This document shows positions 1 to 7,570 of a stretch of DNA of 7,570 nt, piece by piece; positions within the stretch are counted from its first letter, which is position 1; each line of letters begins with the position of its first letter. Position numbers and translations under genes: made by a program. Under the pieces are notes generated by a model that ran no database searches, was not told the DNA's origin, and saw nothing but the letters and a program-made list of their open reading frames with translations. This DNA comes from Gemmatimonadota bacterium (GTDB lineage: Bacteria > Latescibacterota > UBA2968 > UBA8231): NCBI GenBank assembly GCA_028875335.1, contig JAPPEF010000079.1:1-7570 (forward strand). Direction: 5' to 3'.

Positions 1-3000
1 GTCACCGCGAGGCGCGAGAGGAACTCCTCGACCTCGCCGCGCACGTCGCTGCCCGAGGGGAAGCGCACGGCCACGGATTGCAGGGGATTGCCGCTACCGA
101 CGTTGCGCAACGTGTGGTAAGGCACGATTAGGATGTTGGCCGGCTCTATATGGACAAAGGGCTTGATGACGACCTTGGCGTCCTCCAAGCCCTGCTTCTC
201 GCGCTTTTCTTCCTCGGCGATTTCCTGCACAGCTTGGCCGCCGGTGACGGCGAAGTCGGCTGGCGTCAAGATTTCGTCGTCGAGGTCTTTGAGGTCCTTC
301 ATCCGCTTGGAGTCGAGGACGCCAACGACCGTGAACAAGTCGCCGAAGATGCGAACCTGCTCTTGGCCAACTTTGGCGAGGTCAATGTCGAGATGGGCCT
401 CCTTGACCATGTCGATGGGCAGGATGCAGACCTTGTCCTCGCCCGGCTCAAACCACCGCCCGGCGACTAGGGCTTGATTCAGCCCAGTGACCTGGGTTTC
501 CTCAGGGGTCAACCCAAGGACGCCGAGCGCGTTATGGGCGTTTTCTCCGTGTTTTATTTTAATGTGCGCTTTGGCCTTATTGCTATACCAGCTACGCGGT
601 GCGACCGCGGCCCGACCACCGAAATTGCTGCGGGCGTATTCGAGGACTGAATCCTCCATCGGATTCCACGCCTTGCTGCGGATTAGGATGCCCTCGTAGA
701 GCCCTTCGTTGTCGCGGCTGATTTGATTGAACCGCAGGCCCGTGCGGATAGAGGTGAAGGAGAGGACCGTAAAGGTCAGCAGCAAGAGCGTGGTAAAGGT
801 GAGGACCGTGCGCGTCTTGCGCCGCTTCATGTTGGAAATCCCGAGCTGGAAGGCGGTCAGCGAGGCCGAAGAGCGGCTGACGTCTGTGTCGTGGATCACG
901 GCCACCTCGGTGCGCAGCTTTTTCATCTGTTCGTTGAAGCGGCCGGAAATGATCGACATCACGAGAACGGCTAGCACGATGATGATGAAAGCGAGCAGGA
1001 TGACGAAGGGATTGGATAACTGGAAGGCTGGATGCACCAACCACAGCACGATCCAGATCACTAGGAAAACTCCGGCAAACCCGATGATTTGATTGCGAAT
1101 CGTGGCGGCAGTAAAAATGAGCCGCTCGGTAAAAAAGGCGCAGGGAAGGACGAGGGCCATGAAGAAGATAATGCCCTGAATGACGTCGTTTTGGGTGGAT
1201 TTGACGTCTGGATAGGCGCGCGATTCTAGCCCGAAGGCCGCGCGCGTGTGACGCACGAAATCTCCCCAGCGTTGCTCAGTGCCAGCCGCTGCGGCTTGGT
1301 TTAACTCGGTTTCAGCCCGGTAGTGGAGGTCGTTGAGGCGCTGGTTCTCAATGGCAAAGCTCCGCAGTTCGCGCATCCGCGACTCGTCGAGATTCCACAT
1401 GTCTTGGGCGGCTTGGAAGGTCGTGCGGGCAAAGGAAGTGCCGGGACGAATCTCGAATCCCTCGCCCTCGGCCTTGTCTTTGTCAGTGACGCTGGTGGCG
1501 TTGAGCAGTAGCGAGCGGAATCCCAGCAGGCCCGCGCCAAAACCCATTTTTATGCGCGAGCCGGGCCGCGCGAAGAGCACTCCGACCGGCTCGTTTTGGG
1601 CCGAGGGCCCCTCGCCAATGGTATAACCGTACTCCACGGGCGGGCCGTTCGTCTCGTCGAAGACCTGTACGTTGGCCAGCTTGGTAAGATAGCGCGGATC
1701 GACGATGTCGAAGAAATTGTAGGGCACGCAGGGGAAGAGGATGACCATCCACTGCTTGTCGCGCCAGTCCATGGAGACCCTCATCGGGTAGCTCTCGTCG
1801 CCTTGCACGCCGCGGTCCGGGGCGTAGGTGATGCGGCCGGTGATCGGGTCCATGTAGTAGCCCTCAATCTGCACGTTGTTGACTCGCACCCGATTTACGT
1901 AGAAGGCCCCCTTATCATCGACAACCTCGTAGTACTCGCCGCGCACGCCTTTATACGACTTTTTCTTGCCGTTGCGCACGACGGCTACTGCGTCTGCGCG
2001 CGGCAGGTCGGGGATGATACTGCGGCGCGGAAAGACCATGGTCCGGCCGCGCAGCGAGCGCAAATTGTCGCGCAGGCGCATCTTGAAGTCCGGGAAAAGC
2101 TCTGGGTCTTCAAAGGCCATCTCGAACATGCCGGCGAGCACTCGGATCTGTTTGGCGAGATTGGCGTGATTGACGCGCTCGGCTCGGTCTAAGGGTGTAT
2201 CGACGAGGAAGCGCGCGTCGTTGACTGTGACAAAGGCCAACGCCGGCGTACCAGTCGCCAACACCAATTCGCTGTTGACCGATATTTCGCCCGGGACAAA
2301 AGTCTGCCAGCTCATCCCGCCTTCGGGGCTAATGCCATTGACCAGCACGTCGCGTTGCTGGTAGCCCAACTCGCGGCTGATCTTGCGCGCATAACCCATA
2401 AAATTCTTGCCGAAAGGCGCGAAGTAGCGCTTGTAGTAAAAGCTGGTATTGCTGTTCCAGACTCCAAGCTCGTCGGTTTGCGACGAAAGATCGAGGCTAA
2501 TGAAGAGCTTGACCGCGAGCGAATCGACTTTGGGGTCGGCCCAAGTTTTGTAGAGCGCCAAGCGCAAATCGTCGTCCGAATGCAACTCATCAACTAGTTC
2601 GTCGCGGTTTTTGAATTGCTCGTCGGCGAGGTGCAGTGCGCCTTGTTCTTGGCTCAGCAGCCCTTCGGCGAGCGCGGCGTCGGCAATGTGCGCGGCCAAG
2701 TCGGTGAGTCCTTCAGCAACGCTCCGCACGAGGGCTTCCTTGCCGGTAAATTCCTCCTCGCCGATGGCGTAGTGGATGCCGTCTTGGGCGATCATATTTT
2801 GCGCGAGTGCGGCATCGACGACCCGCCGCACCAGCATGTGTTCGATGAAGGGATCCTCTTTGCGCAGGTAGCGCTGGATGAAATCATCGACCCCGCGCAA
2901 GCCCAAGTGGTGGGCCGAAGTGGCGAGAAAGACGATCGTGCGCGCCGGGGGGTTGGCGCGAAAATAGCGCGCTAGCTCTAACAGCGCAGTAATGCTGGAG

Positions 3001-3818
3001 GCCTGCTCGGCACCCGGGGCTAGAGCAGGCACGACCGACATGGCGTCATAGTACGCCTCCAGCACGATCACGTCTTCTTTCAGCAAGGGGTCGTATCCGG
3101 GGATCGTGCCGAGGATATTCCAAGCGGAACGCCGCTCCCAATCCATGCGGTACTCCAAGTGGAGCGTCTGCTCGCCCGCTGCGGCCAACTGGCGGCGCAA
3201 GTGCTGGCCGGTTTGGCGATTGACCCAAAACCTCGGTAGGTCGAGCGGCATGGTGAGAAATTTCTTTTCACCCTCCAAGTACACGGTGGAATCCGGCTCG
3301 ATAAAGAGGATGGCCTGTGCCCCGAGATAGGCGGCATTGAGCCAGGCGTCGCCCGAATTAAAGTCCATCAGGGCCACGGCTCCTTCGACTTGTTTGCCGT
3401 CCATATCCGCGTACTCACCCGCGCCAGCGTCTATCAGGCGCCCGGTCATCCCGCCTTCGGGCAACGTCGAAGTTTTGACGAGGTTGGGCCAGAGGCCGTG
3501 GATTGGCACTTGTTCGTCGCTGCCAACGACTTGCAGAAACCCGCCCTTATCGACCGGAATCGAGATATCGTATTCGTGGATTGCGATATCGTCGAGGCCG
3601 ATTGCGCGGAAGCGCTCCTGCACGATCTGGGCCGCTTGGTCGGCACCTGGATAGCCAGCGACTCTAGATCCCAAGCTGGCAAAGGTGTCCATCGTCTGCT
3701 GCACGCGCTCGACTGGGGTCGTCCGTGCCAACTCGGCAAAATCGACCTCGGTCCAGGCCGGTGCCACGCTGGCCAAAATCCAGCCGAGGGCCATCCACTT
3801 CACCGCGAACTTAGGCAT
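1..3818 (-). CDS. M28 peptidase-like / FtsX-like ABC permease fusion protein (partial, C-terminus beyond window)
   Basis: One uninterrupted frame of 1272 codons runs from ATG at 3818 to the left edge. Residues 1-22 look like a signal peptide (basic start, hydrophobic core, APA before W22). Residues ~126-215 resemble a PA insert. An M28 fold follows: EAYYDA (254-259), GAEQASS (269-275), FLATSAHHLGLRG (around His303-His304), LDLSS (Asp443) and VDTPLD (539-544). Residues ~560-870 are soluble and unassigned. Three membrane helices lie near 879-898, 911-932 and 938-958. A basic cytoplasmic stretch with NMKRRKTRT leads to the FtsX/MacB first helix (~1004-1024) and a MacB-like periplasmic domain (GRWFEPGED, FTVVGVLD). 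Topology is consistent: both large domains face outwards. Known: FtsX-type permeases pair with a cytoplasmic ATPase, and their last helices lie at the C-terminus. Neither is in view. Inferred: an ABC complex at the inner membrane with a peptidase-derived outer domain. M28 metal ligands are mostly replaced, so peptidase activity is doubtful. Sure of the FtsX part, fairly sure of M28 ancestry. Confidence 0.85.
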   Translation of the reverse strand, partial: MPKFAVKWMALGWILASVAPAWTEVDFAELARTTPVERVQQTMDTFASLGSRVAGYPGADQAAQIVQERFRAIGLDDIAIHEYDISIPVDKGGFLQVVGSDEQVPIHGLWPNLVKTSTLPEGGMTGRLIDAGAGEYADMDGKQVEGAVALMDFNSGDAWLNAAYLGAQAILFIEPDSTVYLEGEKKFLTMPLDLPRFWVNRQTGQHLRRQLAAAGEQTLHLEYRMDWERRSAWNILGTIPGYDPLLKEDVIVLEAYYDAMSVVPALAPGAEQASSITALLELARYFRANPPARTIVFLATSAHHLGLRGVDDFIQRYLRKEDPFIEHMLVRRVVDAALAQNMIAQDGIHYAIGEEEFTGKEALVRSVAEGLTDLAAHIADAALAEGLLSQEQGALHLADEQFKNRDELVDELHSDDDLRLALYKTWADPKVDSLAVKLFISLDLSSQTDELGVWNSNTSFYYKRYFAPFGKNFMGYARKISRELGYQQRDVLVNGISPEGGMSWQTFVPGEISVNSELVLATGTPALAFVTVNDARFLVDTPLDRAERVNHANLAKQIRVLAGMFEMAFEDPELFPDFKMRLRDNLRSLRGRTMVFPRRSIIPDLPRADAVAVVRNGKKKSYKGVRGEYYEVVDDKGAFYVNRVRVNNVQIEGYYMDPITGRITYAPDRGVQGDESYPMRVSMDWRDKQWMVILFPCVPYNFFDIVDPRYLTKLANVQVFDETNGPPVEYGYTIGEGPSAQNEPVGVLFARPGSRIKMGFGAGLLGFRSLLLNATSVTDKDKAEGEGFEIRPGTSFARTTFQAAQDMWNLDESRMRELRSFAIENQRLNDLHYRAETELNQAAAAGTEQRWGDFVRHTRAAFGLESRAYPDVKSTQNDVIQGIIFFMALVLPCAFFTERLIFTAATIRNQIIGFAGVFLVIWIVLWLVHPAFQLSNPFVILLAFIIIVLAVLVMSIISGRFNEQMKKLRTEVAVIHDTDVSRSSASLTAFQLGISNMKRRKTRTVLTFTTLLLLTFTVLSFTSIRTGLRFNQISRDNEGLYEGILIRSKAWNPMEDSVLEYARSNFGGRAAVAPRSWYSNKAKAHIKIKHGENAHNALGVLGLTPEETQVTGLNQALVAGRWFEPGEDKVCILPIDMVKEAHLDIDLAKVGQEQVRIFGDLFTVVGVLDSKRMKDLKDLDDEILTPADFAVTGGQAVQEIAEEEKREKQGLEDAKVVIKPFVHIEPANILIVPYHTLRNVGSGNPLQSVAVRFPSGSDVRGEVEEFLSRLAV

Positions 3819-3834: not shown

Positions 3835-5802
3835 TCAGATCCAGAAGACCACATTGTCGGTCATGCCCGTAAAAAAGTCGATAATCAACCAGAGCCCCGC
3901 GATAAAAAACTGGCCTATGATCAGGCCTAAAAAGAAGGGACGTGCCCGGCGAAAAAGGCTGGGACCGCCGTATTTCATCGCCAACAACTTTAAGAGCCAA
4001 GCGAGGGCAATGCTAAACCACAACTGGTCCATCAGCCACACAGCACCAATGGGGTATCCAATGGGATGCAGAGGCCACCACAAGAGCTGCTGACGCGCCC
4101 ACATGAGCAGGGCCATGATGCCCCCGCCGACAAAAGTGTGAATCCAACCATCTATGTTCGGCTCGGTGGGCGCGCTTAACTTGGTGGTAATATAATCAAA
4201 AGGGGCGCGAGTTCCACCACCAAAAAACCACGCGTTGAGGTTGATGCCGCCGTATTCGTAGGCGAGGTACAAAATCGTTGCGACCGAGCCGACAATGCTG
4301 ACAAAAATCGCCAGCAGCACGTACCAAAAAAGCGGCCGCAGCCGCGATCCTAACTCCTCGCCCAATTTGAGGCCGTGCGCGCAGGAAGCCATGACAAACG
4401 TACGGATGTCTGCCGCCCACACGAAGGTGTACGCGAGGCCGACCATGCCGGCCGGGCCGATCGCCGAAGAGCCGACGGCCGAGACCAAGACCGTCGAAGA
4501 AATCATCGGTCCGACCGCCGCGGCCACGCCTCCTTCTACTACCACTCGAGTTAGACCGACGAAGATAAGGATGGCCAGCATCAGGGTCAAAAAGGCCGCC
4601 CACAGGGGCAAGCCAGACTGCCATAGCCAGATGGTCATCACTGCGACGCCAGCGAGCCAAGTTAAGACCGCTGCCCGATAGGAGATCATCTCGCCGCTGT
4701 CATCGATGCGGTCGTCGCCCTTGAGGGCCTTGCGCAGTACGTCGCGCAGGTGCTCGCGGCCGACCCACAGGCCGAAAAGCACTAAGACGATCATCGCTCC
4801 CTGCCCTTGGTGGGCGAGGATCGGCTCGCTAGGAGCACCGTAAACGAGCTTTTCGGTGCTGCCGACCCCTAAGATCCCCAGTCCCCCTCGGATCAGCTTG
4901 GCGATGGTGTTGAAAAACCATAGGCTGAAGGCGATGTCGAGGTTGATGAGATAGGCAAACCCCACCATGGGAAAGCTCAGGCGGAAGATCAGGCTTGTGG
5001 TGTTGCGCAGAATCGGGATGGAGGAGACGAGTTGGATGGCGGGGATGAAGTTGAAGTACGCGTGTAGGGCGTTGAGGCTGCTGACGAGCGCGGGTAGGGC
5101 AAAGCCGATCCACATAATCGGATTTTTGAAGAAAGGGCCTAGGGCCTCTCCGCGGCCCCCACTCTGCACCATGGCTAGGGGCACCTGCACCAGCGGATAA
5201 ACTAGCCGCTCTCGCTCCACCCACTGGCGGCGCATAATGACCATAGACGAGATCATGACCAAGTACAGGGCTACGATCAGAATAGTCCAATAGCACAGCG
5301 GGCCGCCCCAGACAGCCCAAGGTACCCCAACAGTGCGCGGTGCTCCTTCGTAAAACCACTTGACCGCCTCGGGATTCTGTGGCGCGATCCAGTCGGGAAG
5401 GTGCGGCAGGATGTGCAAGGCCCACTCGTTTTCCGGGGTGGCGTAGTATTGGGCACCGGTGATGATCGTCAACCAGTACTCGCTGAGGCCCATCGTGGGG
5501 ATGGCCGAGGCCGTGAGCATCATAATGTACGCGACGATAAGCTCGCAACGCCCGAGGGCCACAGGAGCGGCGAAGCGCGTCAGCAAGGCATTGAACAAGC
5601 CCGTTAGCAAGAAGAAGAGAAACAGGGCACCCGCTGCGCTGAAATCAATCGACATGTAGGAGCCGCGGATGACCATGTTGCCGTACGGTGCTCCCACGGC
5701 AATGCACAGCGACCCTAGGGTGCCCGCCACCAGTGCCTTGGCGCTGAAGACCGGCTCGGCTCGTACTGGGGCCTGAAAGGTAGGCTCTTTCGACAAATCC
5801 AT
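3835..5802 (-). CDS. DUF6785/DUF6784-type polytopic membrane protein, possible OPT-like transporter
   Basis: A 655-residue protein with about 14 predicted membrane segments and a short cytoplasmic N-terminus (first helix from ~22). Recognisable family motifs are RRQWVERERLVYPLVQVPL (191-209), HQGQGAM (331-337), RVVVEGG (419-425), WWPLHPIGYP (575-584) and RPFFLGLIIGQFF (621-633). From memory these mark the DUF6785 N-terminal and DUF6784 C-terminal regions found together in membrane proteins of Planctomycetota, Armatimonadota, Poribacteria and similar phyla. Length fits a complete family member. The substrate is unknown; a relation to oligopeptide (OPT/YSL) transporters is a guess from overall shape. 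It starts 35 bases after the Gx gene and ends 16 bases before the M28-FtsX gene, so it is probably co-transcribed with the latter. No Shine-Dalgarno sequence is visible before its ATG. Sure it is a membrane protein, fairly sure of the family, unsure of function. Confidence 0.88.
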   Translation of the reverse strand: MDLSKEPTFQAPVRAEPVFSAKALVAGTLGSLCIAVGAPYGNMVIRGSYMSIDFSAAGALFLFFLLTGLFNALLTRFAAPVALGRCELIVAYIMMLTASAIPTMGLSEYWLTIITGAQYYATPENEWALHILPHLPDWIAPQNPEAVKWFYEGAPRTVGVPWAVWGGPLCYWTILIVALYLVMISSMVIMRRQWVERERLVYPLVQVPLAMVQSGGRGEALGPFFKNPIMWIGFALPALVSSLNALHAYFNFIPAIQLVSSIPILRNTTSLIFRLSFPMVGFAYLINLDIAFSLWFFNTIAKLIRGGLGILGVGSTEKLVYGAPSEPILAHQGQGAMIVLVLFGLWVGREHLRDVLRKALKGDDRIDDSGEMISYRAAVLTWLAGVAVMTIWLWQSGLPLWAAFLTLMLAILIFVGLTRVVVEGGVAAAVGPMISSTVLVSAVGSSAIGPAGMVGLAYTFVWAADIRTFVMASCAHGLKLGEELGSRLRPLFWYVLLAIFVSIVGSVATILYLAYEYGGINLNAWFFGGGTRAPFDYITTKLSAPTEPNIDGWIHTFVGGGIMALLMWARQQLLWWPLHPIGYPIGAVWLMDQLWFSIALAWLLKLLAMKYGGPSLFRRARPFFLGLIIGQFFIAGLWLIIDFFTGMTDNVVFWI

Positions 5803-5840: not shown

Positions 5841-6359
5841 CTGTCCTTGGTTCAACCAGCCTATTTTCTCTAATTGCGCCAAGGTCCACCAAGCCAACAG
5901 GCCGATCGCCCCTCCGCTCACCAGAGCGCTGAACAAGGCCAGCGGTAACAGCGCGAATAAACCGCTGTGGCCGATATAGCCAGCGGCGAGAGCGAGCTGG
6001 CTGAGTTGGTGCGCCAACGCGCCCCAAATACTCAGGCCCACGACGCTGAAAAGCCGCGCCCTTATGCGGCGGACCGCAACCATGACCAGCCAACTTGCCA
6101 ATCCAGCCCCGCCGCCAATGACAAAGGCCGGACCGGCAAACCCCCCGCTGAGCAAGCCGCCAACTACCAGCTTGATGGCACTAACGGCCAATGCCGGACC
6201 GCTGCCAAAGCTCACCAGCGCGACCAAAACCGGCAAATTGCCGAGTCCCAACTTCATCCAAGGTAAGGGTTTGGGCACCAGCGATTCAAAGGCGAAGAGC
6301 ACGATTGCCGCGCTGGCCATAAGCCCCAAACGGGCCACATCTCTAGGGCGTGCAAACAT
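5838..6359 (-). CDS. Gx transporter family membrane protein (Hpre_diP_synt_I type, ECF-S-like)
   Basis: A 173-residue, highly hydrophobic protein with five or six membrane segments. Family hallmarks are a Glu in the first helix (E25), PKPLPWMKLGLGN (29-41), a Lys in the next helix (K66), GGLLSGGFAGP (67-77) and GALAHQLSQL (113-122). The family was once named heptaprenyl diphosphate synthase component I, but it looks like the small membrane S component of ECF importers. Its substrate is not known to me. Length is usual. The same frame is open upstream to an ATG at 6425, but I chose the ATG at 6359: it forms TGATG with the stop of the preceding gene, and the 22 extra residues are charged and unlike the family. 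This overlap implies translational coupling to the NusG_II protein, a common partner. Neither a polyprenyl synthase nor an ApbE flavin transferase gene, frequent companions elsewhere, is in the window. Confidence 0.87.
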   Translation of the reverse strand: MFARPRDVARLGLMASAAIVLFAFESLVPKPLPWMKLGLGNLPVLVALVSFGSGPALAVSAIKLVVGGLLSGGFAGPAFVIGGGAGLASWLVMVAVRRIRARLFSVVGLSIWGALAHQLSQLALAAGYIGHSGLFALLPLALFSALVSGGAIGLLAWWTLAQLEKIGWLNQGQ

Positions 6360-6748
6360 CAGCGAATCATCGCATCTATGGGCGCGGCTCCAGCGATCCT
6401 CAGCACTAGGCCGTTGGGCACGCACGCGGTCACGTCGCCCGCCCGTTGCATCCAGCCCCGCCGCATGCAGATCTTGTGGACACAGGGCGCGGAAATCACG
6501 CGCGCACCCTTGGGGCCGATCTCGATCTCGCTCGCTCCCAGAGGTCCTACAACTGGCAAGACTCCGTAGTTGGAGAGGGCATGTGTGGCGGGCGCGGCTC
6601 CTGCTAACTCGACGATAAGCATGTCGCCGGCTTCGGTCGTATAGCGGCCGTAGAGTACCAGCCCGATCGCACTCAAGCCCACGACGAGTGCGAGAATCTT
6701 ATCTGCTCGCGTCAGCACCGGGGCGTTTTCGGTATTTAGCCGCCACAT
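6359..6748 (-). CDS. NusG domain II-containing membrane-anchored protein
   Basis: A 129-residue protein with one N-terminal membrane helix (~16-34) and an exported domain of about 90 residues. The domain matches stand-alone NusG domain II: ASEIEIGPKGARV (72-84), APCVHKICMRRGW (87-99) and ACVPNGLVLRI (108-118). Three cysteines (C89, C94, C109) sit at the family's usual positions. This is not the transcription factor NusG; the KOW and NGN parts are absent. The domain lies outside the cytoplasmic membrane. In other bacteria it commonly sits beside Gx proteins, with ApbE or FMN-binding proteins nearby, hinting at a redox or envelope role, but the function is not established. The ATG at 6748 has an AAGGA ribosome site six bases upstream. 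It is the first gene of the leftward cluster. Confidence 0.88.
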   Translation of the reverse strand: MWRLNTENAPVLTRADKILALVVGLSAIGLVLYGRYTTEAGDMLIVELAGAAPATHALSNYGVLPVVGPLGASEIEIGPKGARVISAPCVHKICMRRGWMQRAGDVTACVPNGLVLRIAGAAPIDAMIR

Positions 6749-6754
6749 CCTGCG

Positions 6755-6759
6755 TCCTT
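6755..6759 (-). promoter_or_regulatory. Ribosome binding site of the NusG_II gene
   Basis: AAGGA on the minus strand stands six bases before the ATG at 6748. It is the clearest Shine-Dalgarno site in the window and fixes the start of this gene. Confidence 0.7.
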
Positions 6760-6769
6760 TTCTGTGCCC

Positions 6770-6799
6770 ATTTTAATTTAACTTCTACCGCGCGTGCAA
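6770..6799 (-). promoter_or_regulatory. Candidate sigma70-type promoter for the leftward cluster
   Basis: On the minus strand TTGCAC (6799-6794) and TAAAAT (6775-6770) are 18 bases apart. The -10 matches the consensus in five of six positions, the -35 in only three. Transcription would begin near 6763, leaving a leader of about 15 bases that still contains the AAGGA site. The position is right for the NusG_II-Gx genes. It assumes a consensus like that of well-studied bacteria, which may not hold in this lineage. Confidence 0.4.
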
Positions 6800-6816
6800 A
6801 CGAACGCGGAACTTCT
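6780..6816. repeat. Direct repeat AACTTCT flanking a CCGCG/CGCGG inverted repeat
   Basis: AACTTCT occurs at 6780-6786 and again at 6810-6816, exactly 30 bases apart. Between the copies lie inverted arms CCGCG (6788-6792) and CGCGG (6805-6809) around a 12-base centre that contains the candidate -35 box. The arrangement could be an operator for the leftward promoter. The elements are short and chance is possible. Confidence 0.35.
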
Positions 6817-6851
6817 GCTTGTATGTACTTGTTTTTTTTTCATCTGCTTGT
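6814..6851. repeat. Direct repeat TCTGCTTGT in the divergent promoter region
   Basis: TCTGCTTGT occurs at 6814-6822 and 6843-6851, 29 bases apart. The similarity continues imperfectly for about nine further bases. A third CTTGT lies between them at 6828-6832. The second copy abuts the candidate -10 of the rightward gene. A run of nine T (6832-6840) separates the copies. These may be tandem sites for a regulator; no known binding protein is recognised. Confidence 0.35.
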
Positions 6852-6858
6852 TTATATT
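6829..6858 (+). promoter_or_regulatory. Candidate promoter for the rel gene
   Basis: TTGTTT (6829-6834) and TATATT (6853-6858) are 18 bases apart. The T-tract at 6832-6840 runs from the -35 box into the spacer. Transcription would start near 6865, only about 18 bases before the ATG at 6883 and close to an in-frame GTG at 6868. The boxes match the sigma70 consensus moderately. Confidence 0.35.
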
Positions 6859-6882
6859 GACGAGCAAGTGACGAATGATCCC

Positions 6883-7570
6883 ATGACCGAAACCTCTCCC
6901 ACACATCTTTCGGCCCTTCCTAACACCTACTTGGACGAACTCGTCGAGCAGGGGGGCGACGAACTGCGGCTGTCAATGCTGCTGATCGAGGTCTCCTCCT
7001 GCAATGACCAAGCCGATTTCGAGTTGCTCAACCGCGCCTACTACTTCGCCAAGGAGCATCACAAGGGCCAGATCCGCAAGTCCGGCGAACCGTTCATAGC
7101 CCACTGCGTCGAAGTGGCTCGGCTTCTGGCCCAGTTGGGCTTGGATCACACTACGGTTGCAGCTGGTCTTTTGCACGACGTCATCGAGGATACACCGGCC
7201 ACGGATGCGGAGGTCGCCGAGCAATTTGGCGACAAGATCGCCGAACTGATCGCCGGGGTTACCAAGATCGATCAGATAACCTACGAAAGCCGCGAGGCGC
7301 GCCAAGCCGAGACCTACCGCAAGATGCTGATCTCCATGGTCAAGGACATCCGCGTCATGCTCATCAAGCTGGCCGACCGCCTGCACAACATGCGCACCCT
7401 CCAATACTTAAGCCCCGAATCCCGCGAGCGGACCGCGAGCGAAACGCTCGAAGTGTACGCACCGCTAGCCCACCGCTTTGGGCTGGCGCGGATCCGCTGG
7501 CAGTTGGAGGACCAAAGCCTCAAGTTTCTCGAACCCAAAATTTACCAAGAATTGCGCGAAAGCGTGGCCA
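6883..7570 (+). CDS. Rel/SpoT-family (p)ppGpp synthetase/hydrolase (partial, N-terminal 229 residues)
   Basis: Bifunctional Rel enzymes make and break the alarmone (p)ppGpp in the cytoplasm and drive the stringent response. The complete HD hydrolase domain is visible: QIRKSGEP (63-70), His74, HDVIED (98-103) and LADRLHNMRTL (163-173). His74, His98, Asp99, Glu102, Asp103 and Asp165 correspond to the metal and catalytic residues of the Streptococcus Rel enzyme (H53, H77, D78, E81, D82, D144) with a constant shift of 21. All are kept, so hydrolase activity is expected. The stretch ETLEVYAPLAHRFGL (188-202) leads into the synthetase domain, whose active site lies beyond the window, as would the TGS and ACT domains. 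No good ribosome site precedes the ATG at 6883. An in-frame GTG at 6868 would add five residues. I give no symbol because rel, relA and spoT cannot be told apart here. Confidence 0.95.
   Translation, partial: MTETSPTHLSALPNTYLDELVEQGGDELRLSMLLIEVSSCNDQADFELLNRAYYFAKEHHKGQIRKSGEPFIAHCVEVARLLAQLGLDHTTVAAGLLHDVIEDTPATDAEVAEQFGDKIAELIAGVTKIDQITYESREARQAETYRKMLISMVKDIRVMLIKLADRLHNMRTLQYLSPESRERTASETLEVYAPLAHRFGLARIRWQLEDQSLKFLEPKIYQELRESVA

Follow-up and report, generated by a model that had tools for sequence, protein, structure and literature searches.

The question raised by this locus is whether a peptidase domain whose metal-binding residues have been exchanged, and which has been joined to a membrane permease, is still an enzyme. 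The window (the whole 7,570-nucleotide stretch analysed here, contig JAPPEF010000079.1 of assembly GCA_028875335.1) encodes on its reverse strand the start of a fusion protein, termed M28-FtsX, with an M28 peptidase-like ectodomain ahead of a permease part. Comparison with its relatives gives good support for the loss of the canonical di-zinc site, and the ectodomain is probably a ligand-binding pseudo-peptidase, its likely ligand being a peptide, that belongs to a type VII (MacB/LolC/FtsX-type) ATP-binding cassette (ABC) permease.

3..3818, reverse strand: M28-FtsX fusion protein, first 1272 residues; open frame with Pfam matches PF04389 and PF12704
2139..3746, reverse strand: ectodomain, residues 25-560; predicted M28 fold with PA-like insertion
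3045..3053, reverse strand: Tyr256-Tyr257-Asp258 at the canonical His-x-Asp; zinc His replaced by Tyr256, Asp258 kept (alignment column counts)
3003..3008, reverse strand: Glu271, most probably at the bridging Asp position, and the variable Gln272; register ambiguous by one residue
2907..2912, reverse strand: His303 at the position of the catalytic Glu base, nearly invariant, and His304 at the Glu ligand position, where H, F, Y or C is found (column counts)
2490..2492, reverse strand: Asp443, the canonical zinc Asp ligand, kept (column counts)
2187..2201, reverse strand: Asp540-Thr-Pro-Leu-Asp544; zinc His replaced by Asp540, the next Asp kept as Asp544 (column counts)

The frame begins with an ATG at 3816-3818, contains no stop codon and is cut by the left window end, in agreement with a sequence-only reading of the stretch, which had described it as open and undamaged. 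Full-length relatives among those listed are mostly about 1500-1600 amino acids (aa) long (1583 aa in P0006, for example). The domain is a member of the M28 peptidase fold and family, as seen from its predicted fold and from a Pfam M28 match (PF04389) at residues 234-352, which scored 36.8 bits against a cut-off of 21.3. M28 aminopeptidases were recovered as fold matches, with the transferrin receptor also among them, and nicalin was one of the profile matches.

In canonical M28 enzymes, with roles taken from the aminopeptidase AAP, the zinc ligands are His, a bridging Asp, Glu, Asp and His, and a further Glu serves as general base. Asp443 is the only one of these ligands kept in the window protein, the others being replaced by Tyr256 (codon 3051-3053), probably Glu271, His304 (2907-2909) and Asp540 (2199-2201), with His303 (2910-2912) in place of the base, all on the reverse strand. 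These codon coordinates agree with where Tyr256, His303, His304, Asp443 and Asp540 had been placed before. The bridging position, for which Gln272 had been named as the substitution, is read differently here. The motif GAEQASS is one residue shorter than the canonical GAxDNASG and the gap can therefore be set in two ways; single-sequence alignments conflict, with Glu271 falling on the bridging Asp of 2ek8 and Gln272 on that of YwaD. With a 55-sequence profile, Glu271 was aligned with the bridging Asp of both 2ek8 and YwaD, and one residue before it in Vibrio AAP (DDD). As column 271 is conserved (E in 231 and D in 2 of 234 rows) whereas column 272 varies between Q, M, N, S, A and T, Glu271, rather than Gln272, most probably stands at the bridging position.

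Conservation was followed through three protein searches, of which the first, with the window protein, gave 330 homologues at E<=1e-10 (best 120 of 330 listed), and the others were likewise listed as the best 120 of 712 and the best 120 of 185. Set 1 was made from 244 aligned rows, 10 of which were dropped as not covering positions 258 and 303, leaving 234; set 2 comprised 118 further proteins from the third search, aimed at M28-sized relatives, with gapped rows set aside per column. The resulting 352 rows are not independent, since close orthologues are among them and a few genes appear more than once (for example L073/L139 and L077/L137). The canonical HxD/D/EE set was found in none of the 352 rows, and Glu stood at neither 303 nor 304 in any of them. 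Tyr257 was present in 233/234 rows of set 1 and 117/118 of set 2, Asp258 in 234/234 and 118/118, His303 in 233/234 and 112/113, and Asp443 in 233/233 letters and 82/83; Asp258, His303 and Asp443 occurred jointly in 315 of the 316 rows having letters at all three. Column 271 held E 231, D 2 and A 1 in set 1 (n=234) and E 101 and D 10 in set 2 (n=117), and column 540 held Asp 227, N 4, A 1, X 1 and one gap in set 1 and Asp in 67/70 rows of set 2. Asp544 was found in 233/233 letters of set 1. More variation was seen at column 256 (set 1: Y 218, F 11, H 4, P 1; n=234) and column 304 (H 190, F 38, others 6 in set 1, n=234; F 65, H 29, Y 8, C 6 in set 2, n=113). The exceptions were few: Gln303 with Pro256 in L138, which is divergent and has a short alignment; Ile303 in a frame-disturbed stretch of P0254; Ser443 in P0218; Ala (L063, P0256), Thr (P0244, P0251), Ile (P0194), Asn (P0261) or Gly (P0268) at 271; and Asn (L121, L122, L124, L132, P0269), Ala (L129), Phe (P0194) or Tyr (P0283) at 540.

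In an alignment thinned to 55 rows, with relatives 34-84% identical to the window, positions 257, 258, 303, 443 and 544 were among the 21 invariant of 556 domain columns, and 271, 540, 256 and 304 ranked 40, 63, 148 and 179. From these ranks and counts, the conserved core therefore consists of Tyr257, Asp258, His303 and Asp443, closely followed by Glu271 and Asp540; the His-His pair lies outside it. The loss of the canonical di-zinc site claimed in the sequence-only reading is thus upheld, with the replacements themselves conserved. The implied picture of a site merely emptied is not, a nearly invariant set (Tyr257, Asp258, Glu/Asp271, His303, Asp443, Asp540) being in place. Its statement that only Asp443 may be kept held for Asp443 but failed in the "only", Asp258 and Asp544 being kept as well. 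Among the residues it had singled out for comparison with homologues, His303 proved conserved and Tyr256 is found in most of the 234 rows, but 272 is variable and His304 is not family-wide, Phe replacing it in 38/234 and 65/113 rows.

The domain is under purifying selection, with ratios of nonsynonymous to synonymous substitution rates (dN/dS) of 0.06-0.14 against 10 orthologues. Together with the fixed replacement residues, this bears out the proposal of changed function over decay. A single FastTree run on 54 sequences, in which a canonical M28 protein from genome G005 served as root, placed P0283 and P0269 as the first branches, nearest canonical M28, with Shimodaira-Hasegawa-like supports of 0.778 for the family including both, 0.999 without P0283 and 0.766 without either. 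Since these two proteins combine His256 and Asp271 with a His303 that is already there, the tree suggests that the base position changed first, the zinc His and bridging Asp afterwards.

The main rival is that the site was rebuilt for other chemistry and the domain is still an enzyme, either as a one-metal enzyme whose ligands are Glu271, Asp443 and Asp540, joined by His304 or His256 in the rows that have them, or as a metal-free hydrolase with His303 as base. It stands as the main rival because the title of PDB entry 2anp, cited in PMC4320195, describes as functional an AAP mutant whose base Glu151 is changed to His, so that His303 by itself is compatible with activity. The rival is also favoured by an acidic residue (Glu or Asp) at 271 in 340 of the 347 rows scorable at 271 and 304, by the retention of Asp443 and Asp540 and by the near-invariance of His303. 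Furthermore, Asp540 was lost in 0/203 rows with His304 and in 8/99 other rows, as though His/Asp had taken the place of Glu/His at one of the zinc sites. This link, however, was weak once near-identical rows were thinned (0/21 His304 against 5/34 Phe304 rows). Moreover, the terminal ligands of neither zinc site persist throughout the family, since a large part of it has Phe at 304 and most rows have Tyr or Phe at 256. Such an enzyme is considered unlikely.

Less likely still is a pure scaffold, in which the domain would grip a partner protein or be a structural piece of the complex, the old pocket being retained for folding only. Pseudo-M28 domains without an enzyme role, such as the transferrin receptor and nicalin, act as receptors or scaffolds, and both were among the matches reported above. 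The five invariant site columns, however, exceed what keeping a fold would lead one to expect, although 16 other invariant columns lie elsewhere and the point is therefore indecisive. A degenerating enzyme or an assembly error, as might be suspected from the joint loss of several canonical ligands and from metagenome rows that are frame-disturbed (P0254) or end early (P0226, P0237), was ruled out by the same replacements being kept in 234 + 118 rows without one canonical site, by the low dN/dS and by open frames in many separate assemblies.

For the pseudo-peptidase reading, the remainder of the frame and its genomic neighbours bear on what the ectodomain would serve. The other parts of the protein lie as follows.

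2529..2846, reverse strand: insert of about 100 residues within the M28 domain (residues 325-430), skipped in matches to other M28-FtsX copies of G005
1719..2087, reverse strand: CnaB/transthyretin-like beta-sandwich, about residues 578-700
948..1184, reverse strand: three extra predicted membrane segments ahead of the FtsX part, about residues 879-957 (hydropathy of relative P0006)
249..809, reverse strand: MacB-like periplasmic core domain, residues 1004-1190 (PF12704, E 2.2e-9)

Matches to the other G005 copies end near residue 326 and restart near 430, and the insert evolves faster than the domain around it (dN/dS 0.13-0.28 over nine comparisons, the tenth lacking a finite dS). Its two halves look alike by eye, with a BLASTP E of only 0.018. 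The FtsX domain PF02687 falls beyond the window end and was found in the full-length relative L060; with PF12704 in the window, both domains of a type VII ABC permease are accounted for, and the fused permease of the sequence-only reading is confirmed as one of MacB/FtsX type.

A scan for Walker A and LSGGQ motifs found them in one of 29 sources (L139) and nowhere in the window. In three deep-branching genomes (G050, G052 and G055, families f8 and f9), the module described below is followed on the same strand by gene E, a 228-aa FtsX half-permease, and then by gene F, an ABC ATPase with Walker A and LSGGQ; in G052 the pair scored 73.9 bits for FtsX (E) and 115.5 bits for ABC_tran (F). E adjoins F in all five loci examined:

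L149, 9178-10849: E/F pair
L148, 8506-10108: E/F pair
L150, 6036-7473: E/F pair
L151, 2193-3590: E/F pair
L152, 4011-5513: E/F pair

Across the phylum, taken as Latescibacterota, M28-FtsX was detected in 59 of 64 genomes at E<=1e-20, with 1-10 matches per positive genome, some of them fragments, and DUF6785, the family of gene A below, in the same 59. E was present in 56 of these and in none of the five without M28-FtsX; the three genomes lacking E alone are 73, 60 and 80% complete. One copy of E is present in 52 of these 56 genomes; the other four (G019, G021, G023, G064) have a second, weak match, and the single-contig genome G005 has one E for seven M28-FtsX copies.

The neighbouring genes were compared across 17 orthologue loci in metagenome-assembled genomes (MAGs), which match the window at 69-96% identity and carry the labels Latescibacteria/Latescibacterota, Gemmatimonadetes/Gemmatimonadota and others; the source of the window is accordingly a relative of the Latescibacterota. 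Of the sampled words of the window, 20% are shared with genome G001.

3838..5802, reverse strand: gene A, DUF6785/DUF6784 protein, upstream partner of M28-FtsX (PF20581 E 4.3e-123, PF20580 E 6.3e-31)
L060, 2958-3404: PqqD-like gene D
L149, 8772-9167: PqqD-like gene D

Gene A, a DUF6785 family member by its PF20581 and PF20580 matches, was found in 13 of the 17 loci, several being cut by contig ends. Gene B (660-1075 aa, weakly OPT-like) was found in 15, and in the other two the contig ends at most 0.8 kb from the matched part. At ten M28-FtsX loci (seven in G005, one of which is the window orthologue, and three in G030), A was present in eight and B in six. In L063 (4193-10456), a single 2088-aa frame joins A to the C-terminal end of M28-FtsX; frames of more than 2000 aa were also seen at matches in G001, G002, G003, G008, G011, G017 and G024. 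A and B have a region in common (hhalign probability 89, E 2.3e-6). In the genome search, one B gene, in L061, reached 28.6 bits for OPT (PF03169) against a cut-off of 25.8, and when seven B proteins were tested separately, that of L061 among them, none gave an OPT match at E<=1. The L061 gene (2989-6213, 1075 aa) encodes PDZ domains near its C-terminus. Behind B, 13 of the 17 loci have gene C (about 300 aa), without a Pfam match, and the PqqD-like gene D (42.2 bits in G005, 41.5 bits in G052). PqqD-type domains are peptide-binding elements of ribosomally synthesised and post-translationally modified peptide (RiPP) pathways, and D may hint at the handling of a made peptide. DUF6785 (PF20581) itself is greatly expanded in the phylum, with up to 60 first-look candidates per genome, of which at most 19 were scored, and it is absent from all 14 control genomes; none of the papers searched mentions 'DUF6785', and no characterised DUF6785/DUF6784 protein was found. 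The remaining genes of the window (5841-7569) are ordinary: a Hpre_diP_synt_I-like gene (PF07456), a NusG domain II protein and a divergent RelA/SpoT start.

The pseudo-peptidase reading can be spelled out as follows. The periplasmic ectodomain would have descended from an M28 aminopeptidase with a PA domain, its His and Glu zinc ligands giving way to the fixed set Tyr257, Asp258, Glu/Asp271, His303, Asp443 and Asp540 at the old positions. The putative acid-rich pocket would bind a peptide, perhaps by its N-terminal amine, without canonical di-zinc hydrolysis. ATPase F would drive the permease and the movement of the ectodomain by mechanotransmission, as treated for type VII ABC systems in parts of PMC7668044 and PMC12646458, and the ligand may be exchanged, in either direction, with the DUF6785 and OPT-like proteins of the neighbouring genes.

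Several observations weigh against this reading. The E/F pair lies away from M28-FtsX in G005 (L152) and G043 (L151), and in the single-contig genomes G001, G027 and G030 at least tens of kb separate the E match from the M28-FtsX matches listed; the link to the ATPase therefore depends on three genomes from two families, of which G052 and G055 share a genus, and on co-occurrence. The five genomes without M28-FtsX, DUF6785 and E are those of one family (f7, G046-G049) and one 67%-complete genome, and so represent few independent events. The case for a peptide as ligand rests on fold ancestry and on the OPT-like gene nearby, whose resemblance to OPT is weak on both tests above. P0283 and P0269, on which the order of changes depends, are partial proteins, and the supports near them are uneven. 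Lastly, outside Latescibacterota the third search took only M28-sized or partial proteins, with the permease and neighbours outside its view.

A bolder extension, held to be doubtful, is that of a new envelope machine, in which one F and E per cell would serve several interchangeable permeases with M28-derived ectodomains carrying the rebuilt site, His303 and Glu271 included, each coupled to DUF6785 and OPT-like proteins, for ATP-driven capture or novel non-dizinc processing of peptides.

By source labels, the rewired domain appears to reach several phyla: relatives from the third search (best 120 of 185) were labelled Latescibacteria, Gemmatimonadetes, Armatimonadota, Chthonomonadales, Planctomycetota, Omnitrophica, Fervidibacterota and Bathyarchaeia, and MAG labels may be wrong. 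In P0286, labelled Bathyarchaeia, an N-terminus weakly (below cut-off) like FAD/NAD-binding families and nucleotide-binding oxidoreductases is joined to an M28-like part with membrane segments; the protein is probably a misassembly, and its label is therefore doubtful. Several of these proteins are named "M28 family peptidase" in source databases, a name that is probably wrong as to activity.

A well-studied zinc-peptidase site has thus been replaced by a different, strictly kept residue set, and some rows may record early stages of the change (His303 ahead of Tyr256 and Glu271). This rewired site is tied to an ABC permease, to DUF6785 proteins that are numerous per genome and without known function, and to the mostly single-copy E, a larger system than the single-window view showed. 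If true, the pseudo-peptidase reading would offer a first clue to the function of DUF6785 and to how the uncultured Latescibacterota handle peptides.

Among known systems, the PA-domain M28 aminopeptidases (Bacillus YwaD/BSAP, 6hc6; Aneurinibacillus AP, 2ek8) and Vibrio/Aeromonas AAP (1amp) share the fold with the window protein, as well as the PA-like insertion, the Asp of HxD, one Asp ligand and the Asp of the C-terminal motif; unlike in these enzymes, the zinc His, the Glu-Glu pair and the second His are replaced and the domain is fused to a permease. The pseudo-M28 receptors and scaffolds (transferrin receptor 1, nicalin and nicastrin, the last not among the fold and profile matches listed) are likened to it by fold or profile rather than residue by residue, and are eukaryotic and, in contrast to M28-FtsX, not known to carry an FtsX permease. 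With DUF6785/DUF6784 and OPT-type membrane proteins the connection is through A, a clear member, and B, which shares a region with A. With the type VII ABC systems (MacAB-TolC, LolCDE, FtsEX-EnvC and YbbAP-TesA), M28-FtsX has the MacB_PCD and FtsX domains in common, and in three genomes its gene run also includes an ATPase and another FtsX permease; according to part of PMC12646458, the periplasmic hydrolase TesA works together with YbbAP. M28-FtsX differs from them in its large M28-like ectodomain in the same chain, its three extra predicted membrane segments, its DUF6785 and OPT-like neighbours and, in G005, its ratio of one E to seven copies.

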